Positions 47,883 through 56,497 of a DNA stretch of 64,000 nt are shown here, in pieces. This DNA is from Dehalococcoidia bacterium (GTDB lineage: Bacteria > Chloroflexota > Dehalococcoidia > Lucifugimonadales > Lucifugimonadaceae). Both the position numbers and the translations under genes were made by a program. The stretch is from contig JAPKBN010000001.1 of the NCBI GenBank assembly GCA_026421215.1, positions 1-64,000 on the forward strand, written 5' to 3'. Each line of letters opens with the position of its first letter. Position 1 is the first letter of the stretch. The notes below the pieces were generated by a model. That model was not told the DNA's origin, ran no database searches, and saw only the letters and a list, made by a program, of their open reading frames with translations.

Positions 47883-48686
47883 GTGCGGTTGGCGCTTCGA
47901 ATCGCAGTTTGCGTGAAGCAGGTACCGGACCCGGAAACTCCCGCATCGGCGTTCAAGGTTGACGAATCCGTCAATCGGATCGTCCCAGCCCCGGGTATTC
48001 CACCAGTTGTAAACGGCTTTGACCTTCACGCGGTCGAGGCAGCTCTACGCATAAAAGACGCCGGAGACGCTGAGGTCATCATCCTCGCCGCCGGTAACGA
48101 CTTCGTCATGGACGTGATGAAGAAACCGCTGTCCATGGGCGCCGATGCGCTGGTCCTGGCGGAAGATCCCATCTTTGAGGATATTGACGCCGTAGGCACA
48201 GTCAAAGTGCTAGCGGCCATGATCGAAAAGACCGGGCCATTTGACCTGATCCTAGGCGGACGACAAGCGTCCGATTGGGATCAGGCGCACGTACCACTCG
48301 GTCTTGCCGAGAAACTTGGGCTTCCGTCCGTGACGCTGGCACGAAATGTTGAACCACAGGACGGGGTGGTCCGGATTGAACGTGCGTTGACCGACGGTTA
48401 CCAGGTCGTTGAAGCCCCGATACCGGCCGTGGTCACCGTCAGTAACGAACTAGGTGAAGCGCGCTACCCGACGCTGCGTGGCATCATGGCGGCATCTCGC
48501 AAACAGCCAGAACGGTTGACGTTGGATGAGCTCGGTCTAACAGCTAATGACCTGAAACCAGATCTCTCACTCCGCAGGTTGTTCATCCCAGAGAGCGAGA
48601 GTCAGGTAGAAATTATTGAAGGCGAAGATGAGGCGGATGCAGGCCGGAAGTTGGCCCTTCGTCTCAGAGAGTTGAATCTGATTTAA
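47883..48686 (+). CDS. etfB: Electron transfer flavoprotein beta subunit
   Basis: RIAVCVKQVPDPETP, NGFDLHAVEAALRIKD, GGRQASDWDQAHVPLGLAEKLGLPSVTLA. Confidence 0.95.
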   Translation: MRLALRIAVCVKQVPDPETPASAFKVDESVNRIVPAPGIPPVVNGFDLHAVEAALRIKDAGDAEVIILAAGNDFVMDVMKKPLSMGADALVLAEDPIFEDIDAVGTVKVLAAMIEKTGPFDLILGGRQASDWDQAHVPLGLAEKLGLPSVTLARNVEPQDGVVRIERALTDGYQVVEAPIPAVVTVSNELGEARYPTLRGIMAASRKQPERLTLDELGLTANDLKPDLSLRRLFIPESESQVEIIEGEDEADAGRKLALRLRELNLI

Positions 48687-49679
48687 ATGGCTGGAATTCT
48701 CGTAATCGGAGAGATACAGGACGGCGCAATTTCCGCCGTTTCTGGCGAGCTGCTGGCGGCAGCCGGCAAACTTGTGGCCGAAGGTGTTAGTGGAGGCGTA
48801 AGCCTTGCCGTTATGGGCGACGATCTGTCAGCCATCATGGCCGTTCAAGCGCCCGGCGCTGACCGCGTAATCCGTATGTCCGATCCCGCCCTCAAAGATG
48901 AAGGTACCGGCGGCTACGACGCACCGGTACTCGCTGTGGCCGCGCTCAACGAAAGCATCTCCCCAGATATCATCCTGTTCGCCAAAACAGACTTCGGCGC
49001 AGTCGCCGGACCACGGGTGGCGTTCAAGCTTGGTGTGGCGGTGGCGCAGGACTGCATCGACGTAGCGCTCGATTCCGAAACCGGACGCGTTGCGGTGACG
49101 AGGCCGGTATTCGGCGGCAATGCGCTGGGCATATATGACTTCAATGGAGATGGCACGCAGGTAGTGACCATACGCCCGGGCGTATTTGATCCTGTAGAAG
49201 GTGAAGGCTCCGGCACGATCGAGGATTTCGACGTGTCCGACGCTGTTTCAAGAGTGCGTGCGGTTCTGGTCGAGACGATAGTCCAGGATAGCGAGGGTGT
49301 CCGACTTGAGGACGCCGACGTGATCATCTCCGGCGGACGCGGACTCGGCGGCCCGGCGCCGTTCGAGCAGCTTCAAGAGCTGGCAGACCTCCTCGGTGGA
49401 GCGGTTGGCGCGTCTCGCGCAGCCTGCGATGCGGGGTGGGTCGACCACAGCTACCAGATCGGTCTGACCGGCAAGAGCGTCAAGCCGACCGTTTACCTGA
49501 GTGTCGGTATTTCCGGCGCTTCGCAACACATGGCAGGTCTGTCCGGCGCACGCAACATCGTGGCCATCAATAAGGACGACAACGCCAACATTTTTAAGTC
49601 AGCACGGTTCGGTGTCATTGGCGACTGGGAGAAGGTTCTCCCGGCGTTCACGGCCACCGTACGGGACCTCGCAGGTTAA
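48687..49679 (+). CDS. etfA: Electron transfer flavoprotein alpha subunit
   Basis: ADVIISGGRGLGGPAPFEQLQELADLLGGAVGASRAACDAGWV, GKSVKPTVYLSVGISGASQHMAGL. Confidence 0.95.
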   Translation: MAGILVIGEIQDGAISAVSGELLAAAGKLVAEGVSGGVSLAVMGDDLSAIMAVQAPGADRVIRMSDPALKDEGTGGYDAPVLAVAALNESISPDIILFAKTDFGAVAGPRVAFKLGVAVAQDCIDVALDSETGRVAVTRPVFGGNALGIYDFNGDGTQVVTIRPGVFDPVEGEGSGTIEDFDVSDAVSRVRAVLVETIVQDSEGVRLEDADVIISGGRGLGGPAPFEQLQELADLLGGAVGASRAACDAGWVDHSYQIGLTGKSVKPTVYLSVGISGASQHMAGLSGARNIVAINKDDNANIFKSARFGVIGDWEKVLPAFTATVRDLAG

Positions 49680-50585: not shown

Positions 50586-50978
50586 TTAGCCCAGCAACAC
50601 TAGACCCCACACCAGCAACACGCTCAGAAGTGCCACGAAGACGGCCGCTGAAGCAAGGTCCTTTGCGCGGGCAGATAGCTCGTTGTGCTCCGTCCCGATG
50701 CGATCTACAACCGTCTCAACAGCGCCGTTCAACAACTCAACGAGCAACACCAACAACAACGGCAAGATGAGCAAGGCACGCTCGACCCCGTTATCGCCCA
50801 ACCAGACGCCAATCGGAGCCAGAATGAGGATCCCAACAAACTCCTGTCTGAACGATGTGTCGTGGACCAGCGCATGCCGGAAGCCGCTCGCCGTGTAGCG
50901 CGCGGCTCTGACAATCCGAAGGGGGTTAAAAAATCCTTTCCCCTGATTATCACTGGGATTCTGGCTGGGCTCAGACAC
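50586..50978 (-). CDS. Diacylglycerol kinase family (DgkA-like) protein
   Basis: RIVRAARYTASGFRHALVHDTSFRQE, LLVELLNGAVETVVDRIGTEHNELSARAKDLASAAVFVAL. Confidence 0.93.
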   Translation of the reverse strand: MSEPSQNPSDNQGKGFFNPLRIVRAARYTASGFRHALVHDTSFRQEFVGILILAPIGVWLGDNGVERALLILPLLLVLLVELLNGAVETVVDRIGTEHNELSARAKDLASAAVFVALLSVLLVWGLVLLG

Positions 50979-50989
50979 GTATCTACCCC

Positions 50990-52126
50990 CTACTCATACG
51001 CAGTCACGATGGCTGCTTTGAACGCGTCTTCTTCGATCACCAATCCGTGGCCCGAACGATCCGGCAGCGTGATCGTTCCCGTTGCTTCGTCAAACGTAAT
51101 TGGTTCTTGGAAGAGAACCTCAAGGTCACTACGGGGACCCGTGTACTCGTGCGGTCGTTCCGGGTGACGAAGCGTTGAACAGAACGCCAGTGACACAGCG
51201 TTGCCTATCGACGGCTGCGTCATGTGCGGGATGATCTGCATGTCTGCTACCTCCGCCATCGCGCCGATACGGATGATCTCGGTGATCCCGCAGCACTTCG
51301 TCACGTCCGGCTGCAGAAGGTCAGGGCGGGCAACCTCGATCAGATCACGGAACTGCCAGCGGGTGTACTCCTGTTCGCCCGCAGATACCGGCACATCCAG
51401 AGCGTCAGCCACCTCACGCAAACCCTTGTAGTTGTAGGGCAGCACCGGCTCCTCGTAGTGGTAGATGCCAAGCTTCTCAAACTCTTTGCCCTGCGAGATC
51501 GCAGCGCTAACCGAATAGCCGTTGTTGACGTCAAAACTCAGAGGGACATCGTCCGGCAACCACTCTCGGCAGACTCGGAACATCTCGAGGTCGCCCTTAA
51601 GTCGCTTATCCTGATGGTATTGCCAGTCCATGCGAATCTTGAAGGCACGGAAGCCCTGGTTGTAGCCGTCCTCGACCTTCTGACGCATCTCTTCGGCGGT
51701 GTCCCGAGAGCCTCCGCCTATGCTTTTGTACATCTTGAAGGTCTTCTTCGTGGCCCCACCCATCAACTGGTAAAGCGGCATGTTCGCCGCCTTGGCCTTG
51801 ATGTCCCACAGGGCAATATCTACCCCGGAGATGGCGTTCGGTCCGGCGCCCATGCCGCCGATTTTGAAGGTGCCGAAGTACATATCGTCCCAGAGCCGAT
51901 TCGTGTCCCTCGGGTCCTTGCCGATTAGCAGGGGTTTGAGGGCCTTCTGGACGTATACAGCGGTCACGTCCGATTGCACGACCGGGCTGCACTCGCCCAC
52001 CCCTTCGATACCCTCATCCGTGTAGATGCGGACAAAGACGCTGGTGGTATTGAGGACGTAAGTTTTGATGTCTGTGATCTTCAACGGTGATCCTGTCTGT
52101 TTCGGATTGGTGTGTAGTGATGGCAT
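50990..52126 (-). CDS. Mandelate racemase/muconate lactonizing enzyme family protein (K-x-R motif)
   Basis: AFKIRMDW, SFDVNNGYS, YHYEEPVLPYNY, VSAGEQEYT, QPDVTKCCGITE, PHM. Confidence 0.9.
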   Translation of the reverse strand: MPSLHTNPKQTGSPLKITDIKTYVLNTTSVFVRIYTDEGIEGVGECSPVVQSDVTAVYVQKALKPLLIGKDPRDTNRLWDDMYFGTFKIGGMGAGPNAISGVDIALWDIKAKAANMPLYQLMGGATKKTFKMYKSIGGGSRDTAEEMRQKVEDGYNQGFRAFKIRMDWQYHQDKRLKGDLEMFRVCREWLPDDVPLSFDVNNGYSVSAAISQGKEFEKLGIYHYEEPVLPYNYKGLREVADALDVPVSAGEQEYTRWQFRDLIEVARPDLLQPDVTKCCGITEIIRIGAMAEVADMQIIPHMTQPSIGNAVSLAFCSTLRHPERPHEYTGPRSDLEVLFQEPITFDEATGTITLPDRSGHGLVIEEDAFKAAIVTAYE

Positions 52127-52224
52127 CGGCAGCGATGTTTAAGAATCAGAGATTTCTCCGTCACTTCTAAACCATTGGCCCTCTACCGCTGGGAGCGGGA
52201 ACCTGGTGTAGGCGCTGGTAGGTA

Positions 52225-53385
52225 TTAGAAAGCGGCCTTCGCTTCCGCGAATGCGTCTTCATCCAGTACCAGGCCGTGACCAGGTCTGTCCGGCAGATCT
52301 ATGAAACCGCTTTCAGGGATTATCGACTCTTGGAACAGTCCTGCGACAGCGTCGAGCGAGCCGCTGAATTCGTACGAATATTCGTGCGGCCGGACTGCAT
52401 GCTGGTAGGTAGCGTACAGGTTCAGACTGGCGGCGCTTGAGATGCCCGCAGAGGGGCAGTGCGGCATCATCGGTTTGTTGTACGCCTCGCATAGTGTGTA
52501 CACCTTCCGCAGGCCCGTAATGCCGCCTGCCATGGCGATGTCCGGCTGCACAATATCGGGGTCTCCGATGGTAATCATGTCCCGGAAGTTGTAGAGCGAT
52601 CGCTCGTTCTCGCCGGAAGACACCGGCACCCGGAGCGCTTCGACAACTTGCTTTAGACCTAGGTAATCGTATTGCGGAAGCGGTTCCTCGAAGTGGGTCA
52701 GTCCCTGGCTCTCCATGTAGCGACCCTGTTGAATGGCCGTGGACACGGTGTACCCGTTGTTGGCGTCAAAACTCAGTGCAGCGTCATCCGGCAGAAAGCT
52801 GCGGCATGCGTCGAAGAGACGCATATCCTTTGCCGGATCGGAGTCGAGCCGGTTGTTGTACCAGTCCATCCGGATTTTGAATGCGCGATAGCCGAGGTCC
52901 CAGCCCTCTTTGACCCGGTCCAGCATCTCATCGGGAGTTCGCTGCCAGCCGAGGCCGGAGCTCCAGTAGACCGGGATGTGAGTACGCACCGCACCTCCCA
53001 GGAGTTTGTATAACGGCAAGTTCGCCGCCTTGCCGGCAATGTCCCACAGCGCGACGTCGATGGCACCCATTCCTGTGCTCTGGAGGCCTCCTGGACCAAG
53101 CGATTTGGTCTCAGTCCACACGGCATCCCAAACGGTCTGTGTGTCACGCGGGTCCATGCCGATGATCAGGGGTCCAGCGATGTCTTCGATGAAGGGCTTG
53201 AGGGACTGCCAGTAGCGGCCGCTGCACTCGCCGATGCCCTCGATGCCTTCATCAGTCTGGACGCGCACGATGAGCGGCACTGAGGAACTGGAGACGTTGT
53301 CCGAGCTGAACCTGATAGGGGTGGCTATGACTGATGTGATTTTCATGTGAGTGGAATCTTTCTGAAAGAGGTGGCGTGGAAGCAA
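52225..53385 (-). CDS. Mandelate racemase/muconate lactonizing enzyme family protein (K-x-R motif)
   Basis: AFKIRMDW, SFDANNGYT, THFEEPLPQYDY, VSSGENERS, QPDIAMAGGITGL, MPH. Confidence 0.9.
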   Translation of the reverse strand: MLPRHLFQKDSTHMKITSVIATPIRFSSDNVSSSSVPLIVRVQTDEGIEGIGECSGRYWQSLKPFIEDIAGPLIIGMDPRDTQTVWDAVWTETKSLGPGGLQSTGMGAIDVALWDIAGKAANLPLYKLLGGAVRTHIPVYWSSGLGWQRTPDEMLDRVKEGWDLGYRAFKIRMDWYNNRLDSDPAKDMRLFDACRSFLPDDAALSFDANNGYTVSTAIQQGRYMESQGLTHFEEPLPQYDYLGLKQVVEALRVPVSSGENERSLYNFRDMITIGDPDIVQPDIAMAGGITGLRKVYTLCEAYNKPMMPHCPSAGISSAASLNLYATYQHAVRPHEYSYEFSGSLDAVAGLFQESIIPESGFIDLPDRPGHGLVLDEDAFAEAKAAF

Positions 53386-53406
53386 AATACAGCGGACGGA
53401 CGTCCA

Positions 53407-54534
53407 CTACCTATCAATCCGATAAGCCTCAACCGCTTCACCAACCGCAACCAGACCGTGGCCCGGGCGATCTGGTAGATCAACGAATCCATCCTTCGGA
53501 ACGATCGCTTCTTCGTAAATTCGTGTGGCATTCTCAAGACCGCCGTTGAACTCCCAGCTGTACTCATGCGGAAGCGTGGCGTTCACCTGCGTTGAGAAGA
53601 CGTGAAGGCTGACGGCGTTCTGTATTCCCGCGCCCGGTCCGTGCGGAAGGACCGGCTTGTTGAACGCCTCGCACAGCGTGAATATCTTGCGTAGCGGTGT
53701 GATCCCGCCAACGAACAGCAGGTCCGGCTGAAGGATATCGGGATCACCTATCTCGATCAGGTCCCTGAAGTTCCAGAGGGTATGCTCAAGCTCGCCGGAA
53801 GTAACAGGCATGTCCAGCGCATCGACCACCTGCTTGAGGCCAGCGTAGTCGTACTGCGGCAGCGGCTCCTCATAGTGTGCCGCGCCCATGTCCTGTAATT
53901 TCAGGCCCTGTTCGATTGCCGTCGAGACCGAGTAGCCGTTGTTGATGTCTATGCTCAATCGGCATTCGTCGCCCAGAAACTCTTTGCAGGCCTTGAAGCG
54001 GGTGAGGTCGCCTTCCGGGTCGACATCTTGTCGCTGGTGCATCCACTCAAGTCTTAGCTTAAAGGCCGTAAATCCAGCCTCTCGGCCCTCACGCATCCGT
54101 TCGATCAGGGCATCGGGTGTACCGGGATCGCCTTCGACTCCTCCGCTCGCCCGAGCCTGCCATGCTATGCCTGTGCTCCAGTAGACGGGTAAGTGTGTCC
54201 GGGCTGCGCCGTTCATGTAGCGGTGCAGGGGCTGGCTAGCAGACTTGGCTGCGATGTCCCAGCAGGCGATATCGATGGCACCCATGCAGATCATCTGCAT
54301 GCCTCCGGGGCCGATCCACTTGGTCGGCGGGAACATGGCGTCCCAGATGAGCTGGGTGTCACGCGGGTCCATGCCGATGACGATCTCGCCGAGCGTCTCT
54401 TCGATAAAGGGCTTCATGGACCGCCAGTAGCGCGCCTGGGCCTCGCCGATGCCTTCAATACCTTCATCTGTACGAACACGAACCAAGAGTGGTCCTGATT
54501 CGATAGGAATGGCCTCTACAGAAGTGATCTTCAC
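53407..54534 (-). CDS. Mandelate racemase/muconate lactonizing enzyme family protein (K-x-R motif)
   Basis: AFKLRLEW, SIDINNGYS, AHYEEPLPQYDY, VTSGELEHT, QPDLLFVGGITPL, LPHG. Confidence 0.9.
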   Translation of the reverse strand: MKITSVEAIPIESGPLLVRVRTDEGIEGIGEAQARYWRSMKPFIEETLGEIVIGMDPRDTQLIWDAMFPPTKWIGPGGMQMICMGAIDIACWDIAAKSASQPLHRYMNGAARTHLPVYWSTGIAWQARASGGVEGDPGTPDALIERMREGREAGFTAFKLRLEWMHQRQDVDPEGDLTRFKACKEFLGDECRLSIDINNGYSVSTAIEQGLKLQDMGAAHYEEPLPQYDYAGLKQVVDALDMPVTSGELEHTLWNFRDLIEIGDPDILQPDLLFVGGITPLRKIFTLCEAFNKPVLPHGPGAGIQNAVSLHVFSTQVNATLPHEYSWEFNGGLENATRIYEEAIVPKDGFVDLPDRPGHGLVAVGEAVEAYRIDR

Positions 54535-55039: not shown

Positions 55040-56497
55040 TTGGGTAATTTGCCGAGCGAGAACTCTTTCGCCTTTATTCCGGCCCATGAGCTTGCCCGCA
55101 TGGTGTCAGCGCGGGAGGTCTCGCCGATCGAGCTGACCGAATGGACGCTGCGACGTATAGAAGAGACGAATGACACGTTGCACGCGTATTTGACGGTCGT
55201 AGCAAATCAGGCCATGGAATCAGCCCGGGCCGCAGAGACTGCTGTGATGCGGGGCGACGATCTTGGGCCACTGCACGGGTTGCCGTTTCCGATTAAGGAT
55301 CTTGTGCCGACTGCCGGAATACGGACGACCTTTGGCTCGGCCGTGTATGCCGACAACGTCCCCCATAAGGACGATATCGTGGTGCAACGAATCAAAGCGG
55401 CCGGTGCCGTCATCATCGGGAAGACCAACACGCCGGAATTTGGGCATCTTGGCTACACGTCCAACAAGCTCGGCGAGGACTGCCGAAATCCGTGGGACAC
55501 AACGCGTGAGAGCGGGGGATCGAGCGGCGGCGCAGCGGCTTCTGTTGCGGCGGGGATCACGCCACTTGCGCAGGGTGGAGACGGCGGCGGATCGATACGA
55601 ATCCCATGCTCACTATGCGGTCTATATGGCATCAAGGGAACCGAAGGCCGAGTGCCGCGTTCCGGAGGAGGCGGTGATGCCGCGTGGCACCCGTACAACC
55701 TCGCGCAGAGTGGCCCACTGAGTCGGAACGTTCGTGATTCGGCACTGTTGATGTCTGTGCTTACCGGCCCCGGAGAAAACGCTGCTCCTGGGACGCTGGA
55801 TGGACCGTCACCAGACTATGTCGGAGCGCTTGTACGAGGTCTTCAGGGATTACGTATCGGCTGGACTCCAGATATGGGCGGGAATGCCGTTGACCCAGAC
55901 GTGGCTGAAATAACGGCACGTGCTGCACGTTCCTTTGAGGGACTGGGAGCCAGCGTCGAAGATTTTGAGTTCGAGATCGACCCCGAAGAAATGTGGTTGT
56001 CGTTCCGTAACTACTTCAATCTCAAAGCGCTTGTCGGATACGGCAACCTACTTGATACGAGCCCGGACCTTTTAACCGATGTCGTCCGGGAAGGCATGGA
56101 GCAAGCGCGAACGCTTACGGCGGTGGACCACCACGAGACGATGGCCTTCATCGCAAAAACGCGTGACTACTTTCAACGCCTGTTTAAGCGTTACGACCTG
56201 ATCTTGAGTCCGACGCTGGCAACCACCGCGTTCAAAGTGGACGACGGCCCGCCGCACGAAATTGGTGGACGCGTGATGGATCCGGATCGAGCCTACTGGA
56301 CCTGGAGTCCATTCACGTACTCGGTGAACATTACGGGGCATCCAGCAGCCACGGTGCCCTGTGGTTTCGATCGAAACGGGATGCCGATCGGCCTTCACCT
56401 GATCGGCGGATTCGGGGACGAAGAAACGGTACTTGCCGCGTCCGCCGCGTTCGAAGCGGATAGCCCGTGGGCGGACAAGCGCCCCCCGGGCTTCTAA
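55040..56497 (+). CDS. Amidase (amidase-signature family)
   Basis: GLPFPIKDLV, ESGGSSGGAAASVAAGITPLAQGGDGGGSIRIPCSLCGLYGIKGTEGRVP: Lys-cisSer-Ser triad. Confidence 0.95.
   Translation: MGNLPSENSFAFIPAHELARMVSAREVSPIELTEWTLRRIEETNDTLHAYLTVVANQAMESARAAETAVMRGDDLGPLHGLPFPIKDLVPTAGIRTTFGSAVYADNVPHKDDIVVQRIKAAGAVIIGKTNTPEFGHLGYTSNKLGEDCRNPWDTTRESGGSSGGAAASVAAGITPLAQGGDGGGSIRIPCSLCGLYGIKGTEGRVPRSGGGGDAAWHPYNLAQSGPLSRNVRDSALLMSVLTGPGENAAPGTLDGPSPDYVGALVRGLQGLRIGWTPDMGGNAVDPDVAEITARAARSFEGLGASVEDFEFEIDPEEMWLSFRNYFNLKALVGYGNLLDTSPDLLTDVVREGMEQARTLTAVDHHETMAFIAKTRDYFQRLFKRYDLILSPTLATTAFKVDDGPPHEIGGRVMDPDRAYWTWSPFTYSVNITGHPAATVPCGFDRNGMPIGLHLIGGFGDEETVLAASAAFEADSPWADKRPPGF

Follow-up and report, generated by a model that had tools for sequence, protein, structure and literature searches.

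Three adjacent K-x-R enolase-superfamily genes in a SAR202-type Dehalococcoidia genome: an old gene pair beside a separate, older lineage

Introduction

The expansion of enolase-superfamily genes (COG4948) in SAR202 bacteria is a described trait of this group. In their passages on enolases, Thrash et al. 2017 (PMC5596340) noted the expansion, Saw et al. 2020 (PMC6946804) described it (4-75 copies for group I), and Lim et al. 2023 (PMC10444878) reported 80 enolase-superfamily genes in cultured strains. The same part of the last paper states that SAR202 group I cells in culture show better growth with fucose, rhamnose, and the corresponding acids and lactones, and it proposes enolase-superfamily enzymes as the dehydratases. 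The enolase passages of PMC6946804 and PMC10444878 describe no tandem arrays (the word "tandem" is applied there to flaB only), and in the literature searched we found no relevant paper on K-x-R enolases or tandem enolase duplication.

Here, we analyzed a stretch of 64,000 nucleotides (the window; GCA_026421215.1, contig JAPKBN010000001.1, positions 1 to 64,000) in which a first-pass annotation had singled out three neighboring mandelate racemase/muconate lactonizing enzyme (MR/MLE) genes, referred to here as E1, E2, and E3. The genome, at 2.37 Mb in 127 contigs and with 91.8% completeness, is from a marine SAR202-type bacterium and contains 60 matches to PF13378, i.e., the same superfamily in the same bacterial group and in numbers similar to those described for SAR202 groups I and II (PMC6946804 and PMC10444878, enolase passages); the annotation's reference to a SAR202 enolase expansion thus agrees with the literature. 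The contigs of the congeners are from public Dehalococcoidia/Chloroflexi metagenome-assembled genomes (MAGs), whose nearest wider relatives are SAR202.

Results

The trio and its immediate neighbors are arranged as follows (positions in the window):

53407..54534, minus strand: E3, MR/MLE enzyme with K-x-R, 375 aa (open reading frame [ORF], Pfam domains, catalytic residues, orthologues)
52225..53385, minus strand: E2, MR/MLE enzyme with K-x-R, 386 aa as the longest ORF (ORF, Pfam, AlphaFold2 model, orthologues)
50990..52126, minus strand: E1, MR/MLE enzyme with K-x-R, 378 aa (ORF, Pfam, catalytic residues, orthologues)
50586..50978, minus strand: dgkA-like prokaryotic diacylglycerol kinase gene (Pfam DAGK_prokar, 1.7e-29; synteny)
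55040..56497, plus strand: amidase-signature enzyme, divergent from E3 (NCBIfam amidase matches, all below cutoffs)
53310..53340 (approximate), minus strand: FSSDNVSSSS, the E2 20s-loop insertion with low-confidence residues, seen in neither E1 nor E3 (alignments)

As first described, the three genes are intact and on the same strand, with gaps of 98 and 21 bp when the longest ORFs are taken; dgkA starts 11 bp downstream of E1. The start of E2 is probably Met14 (plus-strand coordinate 53346), giving a protein of 373 aa, because the E2 orthologues of the congeners have 373 aa and the first 11 residues of the model mostly have pLDDT values of <50; with this start, the gap between E3 and E2 is ~60 bp instead of 21. 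Protein identity is 59% for E2/E3, 44% for E1/E2, and 41% for E1/E3 (63%, 54%, and 53%, respectively, at the nucleotide level). The motifs listed as common to the trio are mostly as stated, except that E3 has AFKLRLEW and that E1 has EEPVLPYNY in place of EEPLPQYDY. The other two paralogues in the window do differ, having IKLH and TKFP where the trio has K-x-R. Genes for the beta and alpha subunits of an electron-transfer flavoprotein lie near the trio (47883-49679), and this linkage is gone in two congeners (G004 and G005).

E1, E2, and E3 are predicted members of the MR subgroup, with capping and barrel domains (Pfam MR_MLE_N, PF02746, and MR_MLE_C, PF13378, above gathering scores in each), metal ligands, a strand-2 Lys, and a His-Asp dyad. 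In E2 numbering, each of the three has the metal ligands D207, E233, and E259 (strand ends 3, 4, and 5), the strand-2 K170-x-R172, the dyad D282/H309 of strands 6 and 7, and E335. The active-site alignment covered every full or near-full paralogue in the genome (57 in all), with positions less certain in the most distant ones; K-x-R occurs in 10 of the 57 and is therefore not confined to the trio. One very divergent MR/MLE-like protein (L050; G000 contig C119, 8752-9858; branch length 3.7) shows changes at several catalytic positions in the alignment and may belong to a different subgroup or be misaligned.

The AlphaFold2 model of E2 (pLDDT 89.9) best matches the solved structure of a Paracoccus denitrificans Pden MR/MLE protein (4dwd/3n4e), with a TM score of 0.89 by query and 0.93 by target and 33% identity. 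This protein shares with the trio a K-x-R in the form of KIR and the motif FDANNGYSV, and its GEQxYT and PHxTQP motifs are nearest to those of E1. It differs in being distant in sequence (~33% to E2) and in having no counterpart of the HEYS[YW]EF segment of E2/E3. We found no functional report on 4dwd/3n4e in the literature searched.

The leading NCBIfam matches of all three proteins are sugar-acid dehydratases, all below cutoffs. The likeness to D-galactonate dehydratase (DgoD/GalD; NF010624) comprises a full-length match, the MR subgroup, and the metal ligands, but the scores of 208.5 (E1), 161.8 (E2), and 151.1 (E3) bits against a cutoff of 311 bits exclude membership. Matches to D-arabinonate dehydratase (NF040866) and L-talarate/galactarate dehydratase (NF047820) are likewise full length, at 137-205 bits, and do not reach the cutoffs of 650 and 500, respectively. 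Assignment of the trio to a characterized family was rejected, as no member reaches any curated NCBIfam cutoff, and for the same reason the reaction is not fixed. Acid-sugar dehydration is the most likely reaction predicted from these matches. The enzymes could instead be racemases/epimerases or lactone cycloisomerases. Such reactions all occur in the superfamily, the structural matches include galactarolactone cycloisomerase (4hpn/4ggb) and 3,6-anhydrogalactonate cycloisomerases, and such activities would agree with the "chiral complexity" proposal in the enolase passages of Saw et al. 2020 (PMC6946804). An acid/base Lys is present together with the His-Asp dyad, a combination compatible with dehydration, racemization, and cycloisomerization alike. 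We nevertheless regard this alternative as doubtful, as the best curated matches, even if none is over its cutoff, are to sugar-acid dehydratases.

No gene for a sugar dehydrogenase, aldolase, or sugar transporter adjoins the trio. A pathway could not be read from the neighbors either, as the gene clusters near 80 relatives show no shared pathway and mostly contain CoA-transferase III, GMC oxidoreductase, ABC/MFS transporter, and housekeeping genes. Only at one locus (L086) does an enolase lie beside a zinc dehydrogenase, a short-chain dehydrogenase/reductase (SDR), and an aldo-keto reductase, as named from reading the sequences.

Two gene trees were built (91 and 97 proteins). The trio consists of paralogues from a single K-x-R subfamily (clade support, 100/99), and both trees unite E2 with E3 as sisters (100/100 and 100/98). 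The enolase of L086, a 62% relative of E2, branches just below the E2/E3 split. E1 falls outside the group that holds E2, E3, and a broad family from other SAR202 bacteria, Gammaproteobacteria, Entotheonella, and others, although the outgroup branches are long and the root is less certain. Five genomes from other genera of the family contain E1 orthologues (55-65% identity); none of the five has E2- or E3-like genes beside them, and in one (G018) the E1 orthologue adjoins a distant paralogue. No E2 or E3 orthologue was detected outside the genus among the 40-60 relatives searched. The trio is thus an E2/E3 pair beside an older, separate E1 lineage and not the product of one triplication; the tree, the presence of E1 in other genera, and the restriction of E2/E3 to the genus among the relatives searched indicate that the pair became the neighbor of E1 before the genus diversified. 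Five relatives of E2 (L088, L090, L112, L137, and L142; 48-55% identity) in MAGs of Gammaproteobacteria and Entotheonella are nested among SAR202 sequences, a placement for which horizontal transfer or binning error is possible. Some of these MAGs are possibly sponge associated, judging by their project prefixes.

The first-pass annotation had taken near-identical DNA blocks in E2 and E3 as a sign of recent duplication or gene conversion. One exact block of 25 bp exists, and no other exceeds 14 bp. The block encodes the conserved I-G-M-D-P-R-D-T (E1 has a similar I-G-K-D-P-R-D-T), and codons of this region vary freely between species. At E2/E3 codons with identical residues, the third position is the same in only 53%. 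Within each of six genomes, E2 and E3 differ with pS values of 0.53-0.70 and pN values of ~0.28 (pS for E1 against the other trio members, 0.66-0.72), and E2 orthologues of congeners have pN values of 0.009-0.066. The low synonymous divergence of a recently duplicated array is therefore not seen; the E2/E3 silent sites are near saturation, at values about as high as, or higher than, the E2-E2 and E3-E3 distances of the most distant congeners. In 30-codon windows compared within and between genomes, there was no clear excess of same-genome E2/E3 similarity. A recent tandem duplication or continuing E2-E3 conversion, for which the exact 25-bp block and the adjacency of the two genes can be cited, is highly improbable given these distances, the lack of a clear signal in the sliding windows, the species-variable block, and the separation of E2 and E3 into two clades (100/99 and 100/100) over six species. 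Orthologues among the congeners are 88-98% (E1; 7 of 7 congeners), 87-98% (E2; 5), and 89-97% (E3; 5) identical, which places the E2/E3 split before the genus.

The orthologue dN/dS values of 0.027-0.075, with silent sites partly saturated in the more distant pairs, show that E1, E2, and E3 are under strong purifying selection. Of the alignment columns, 224 are fixed in every orthologue set taken by itself, and 122 of these differ from set to set, including positions in the 20s, 50s, beta-5, beta-7, and beta-8 regions. E2 has a specific insertion in the 20s loop, E3 carries about 9-11 inserted residues behind strand 1, E1 lacks the S-[YW]-E-F segment after HEY, and the residues after the strand-5 ligand and the strand-7 His differ between the sets. 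These loop and strand-end regions shape specificity in characterized members of the superfamily. Substrate diversification around E-x-E (GEQE, GENE, and GELE) had been proposed for the trio. The first Glu of this motif is E259, the third metal ligand, which is invariant in all 57 aligned paralogues, so the variation lies in the residues that follow the ligand; the fixed differences in the loops and at the pocket rim and the low orthologue dN/dS values are compatible with the broader proposal. The set-specific differences in specificity-shaping regions fit the notion that E1, E2, and E3 act on different substrates. We consider it unlikely that the three enzymes instead share one substrate, being retained for dosage or distinguished by regulation alone; the catalytic residues are identical in all three and two congeners manage without E2-E3, but the proteins are only 41-59% identical, the set-specific fixed residues and specificity-loop indels are held under strong purifying selection, and copies kept for dosage usually remain more alike.

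The order amidase, E3, E2, E1, and dgkA is found in the genome itself and in five of its seven congeners (G002-G006). dgkA is next to E1 in all seven congeners, and the amidase gene is adjacent in the genome itself and in the six congeners whose contigs reach that far; the flank past dgkA differs in G004 and G005. The dgkA gene was considered as a functional partner of E1 and rejected, as it is not beside the E1 orthologues of the five other genomes of the family; the neighborhood is for this reason taken as incidental, and the function of dgkA is probably unrelated to the trio. E1 is present in all eight genomes (this one and the seven congeners), and two of them (G001 and G007) are without E2-E3. 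These two assemblies are incomplete (83% and 86%), with both loss junctions inside contigs. In G007, the absence is clean: the amidase gene is followed by E1, and the match to the window ends ~36 bp before E3 and resumes ~45 bp before E1. In G001, a short decayed 5' piece of E3 (L054; contig C286, about 280-385) lies just upstream of an intact E1 and reads as a relic of E2-E3 loss; no E3 orthologue was found elsewhere in this incomplete assembly. As the breakpoints differ, the two losses were apparently independent.

Genome-wide, ten same-strand arrays, the trio among them, hold 26 of the 57 full MR/MLE genes, and one array contains five genes. Clustering exceeds chance, with 16 adjacent same-strand MR/MLE pairs versus about 1.4 expected (2,300 gene slots assumed), and 13 of the 16, by our reading of the tree, unite members of the same small clade. 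A relative assembled as a single contig (G018) has 78 domain matches, 27 of which are in eleven arrays. With ten arrays here and eleven in G018, the trio is an ordinary case of a general pattern and not special to its site. The five-gene array (L043; G000 contig C112, 1900-8002) is monophyletic, of the K-x-N type, and reaches the contig end; it is larger and probably younger than the trio. Two adjacent genes at L038 (G000 contig C44, 35590-38023), on very short branches (0.079 and 0.075), make a stronger case than E2/E3 for recent tandem duplication, and a pair on contig C104 (L039) is similar.

Discussion

The expansion itself is already published, and the trio is real and largely explained. 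Our main reading, to which we assign a probability of roughly 0.7, is that E1, E2, and E3 are three working, nonidentical MR-subgroup enzymes, probably co-transcribed and most likely dehydratases, in which an old E2/E3 duplication, predating the diversification of the genus, stands beside an older E1. The genes would probably be transcribed together in the order E3-E2-E1, with E3 first. A scan for sigma-70-like promoters at the trio found none, with nothing above shuffles, and a weak terminator-like site between E3 and E2 is no commoner than in shuffled sequences. Each enzyme would hold Mg2+ by the three acidic ligands (roles assigned by alignment), either the K-x-R Lys or the dyad His would remove the alpha-proton of a carboxylate substrate, and elimination of water would most likely yield a 2-keto-3-deoxy acid for nonphosphorylative sugar-acid catabolism. 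This chemistry would have been kept in the trio while divergence took place at the pocket rim. The data show directly which genes are present, how old they are, which catalytic residues they keep, that they are under purifying selection, and that two congeners are without E2-E3; we infer the operon, dehydration over racemization or cycloisomerization, and the different substrates.

The trio represents a dated and bounded case in a biochemically blank expansion, i.e., a core E1 with a genus-level E2/E3 pair that two relatives have lost. The array counts here and in G018 suggest that local duplication and subsequent divergence formed a main route of the SAR202 enolase expansion, and the arrays supply sets of neighboring paralogues for side-by-side assay. 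A more speculative and rather unlikely extension is that E3-E2-E1 form a stereoisomer set, in which co-expressed dehydratases would act on different diastereomers or related acid sugars and, since dehydration removes the C2 and C3 stereocenters, would converge on one 2-keto-3-deoxy acid. If this were true, tandem duplication would be this lineage's general route to handling mixtures of stereoisomers.
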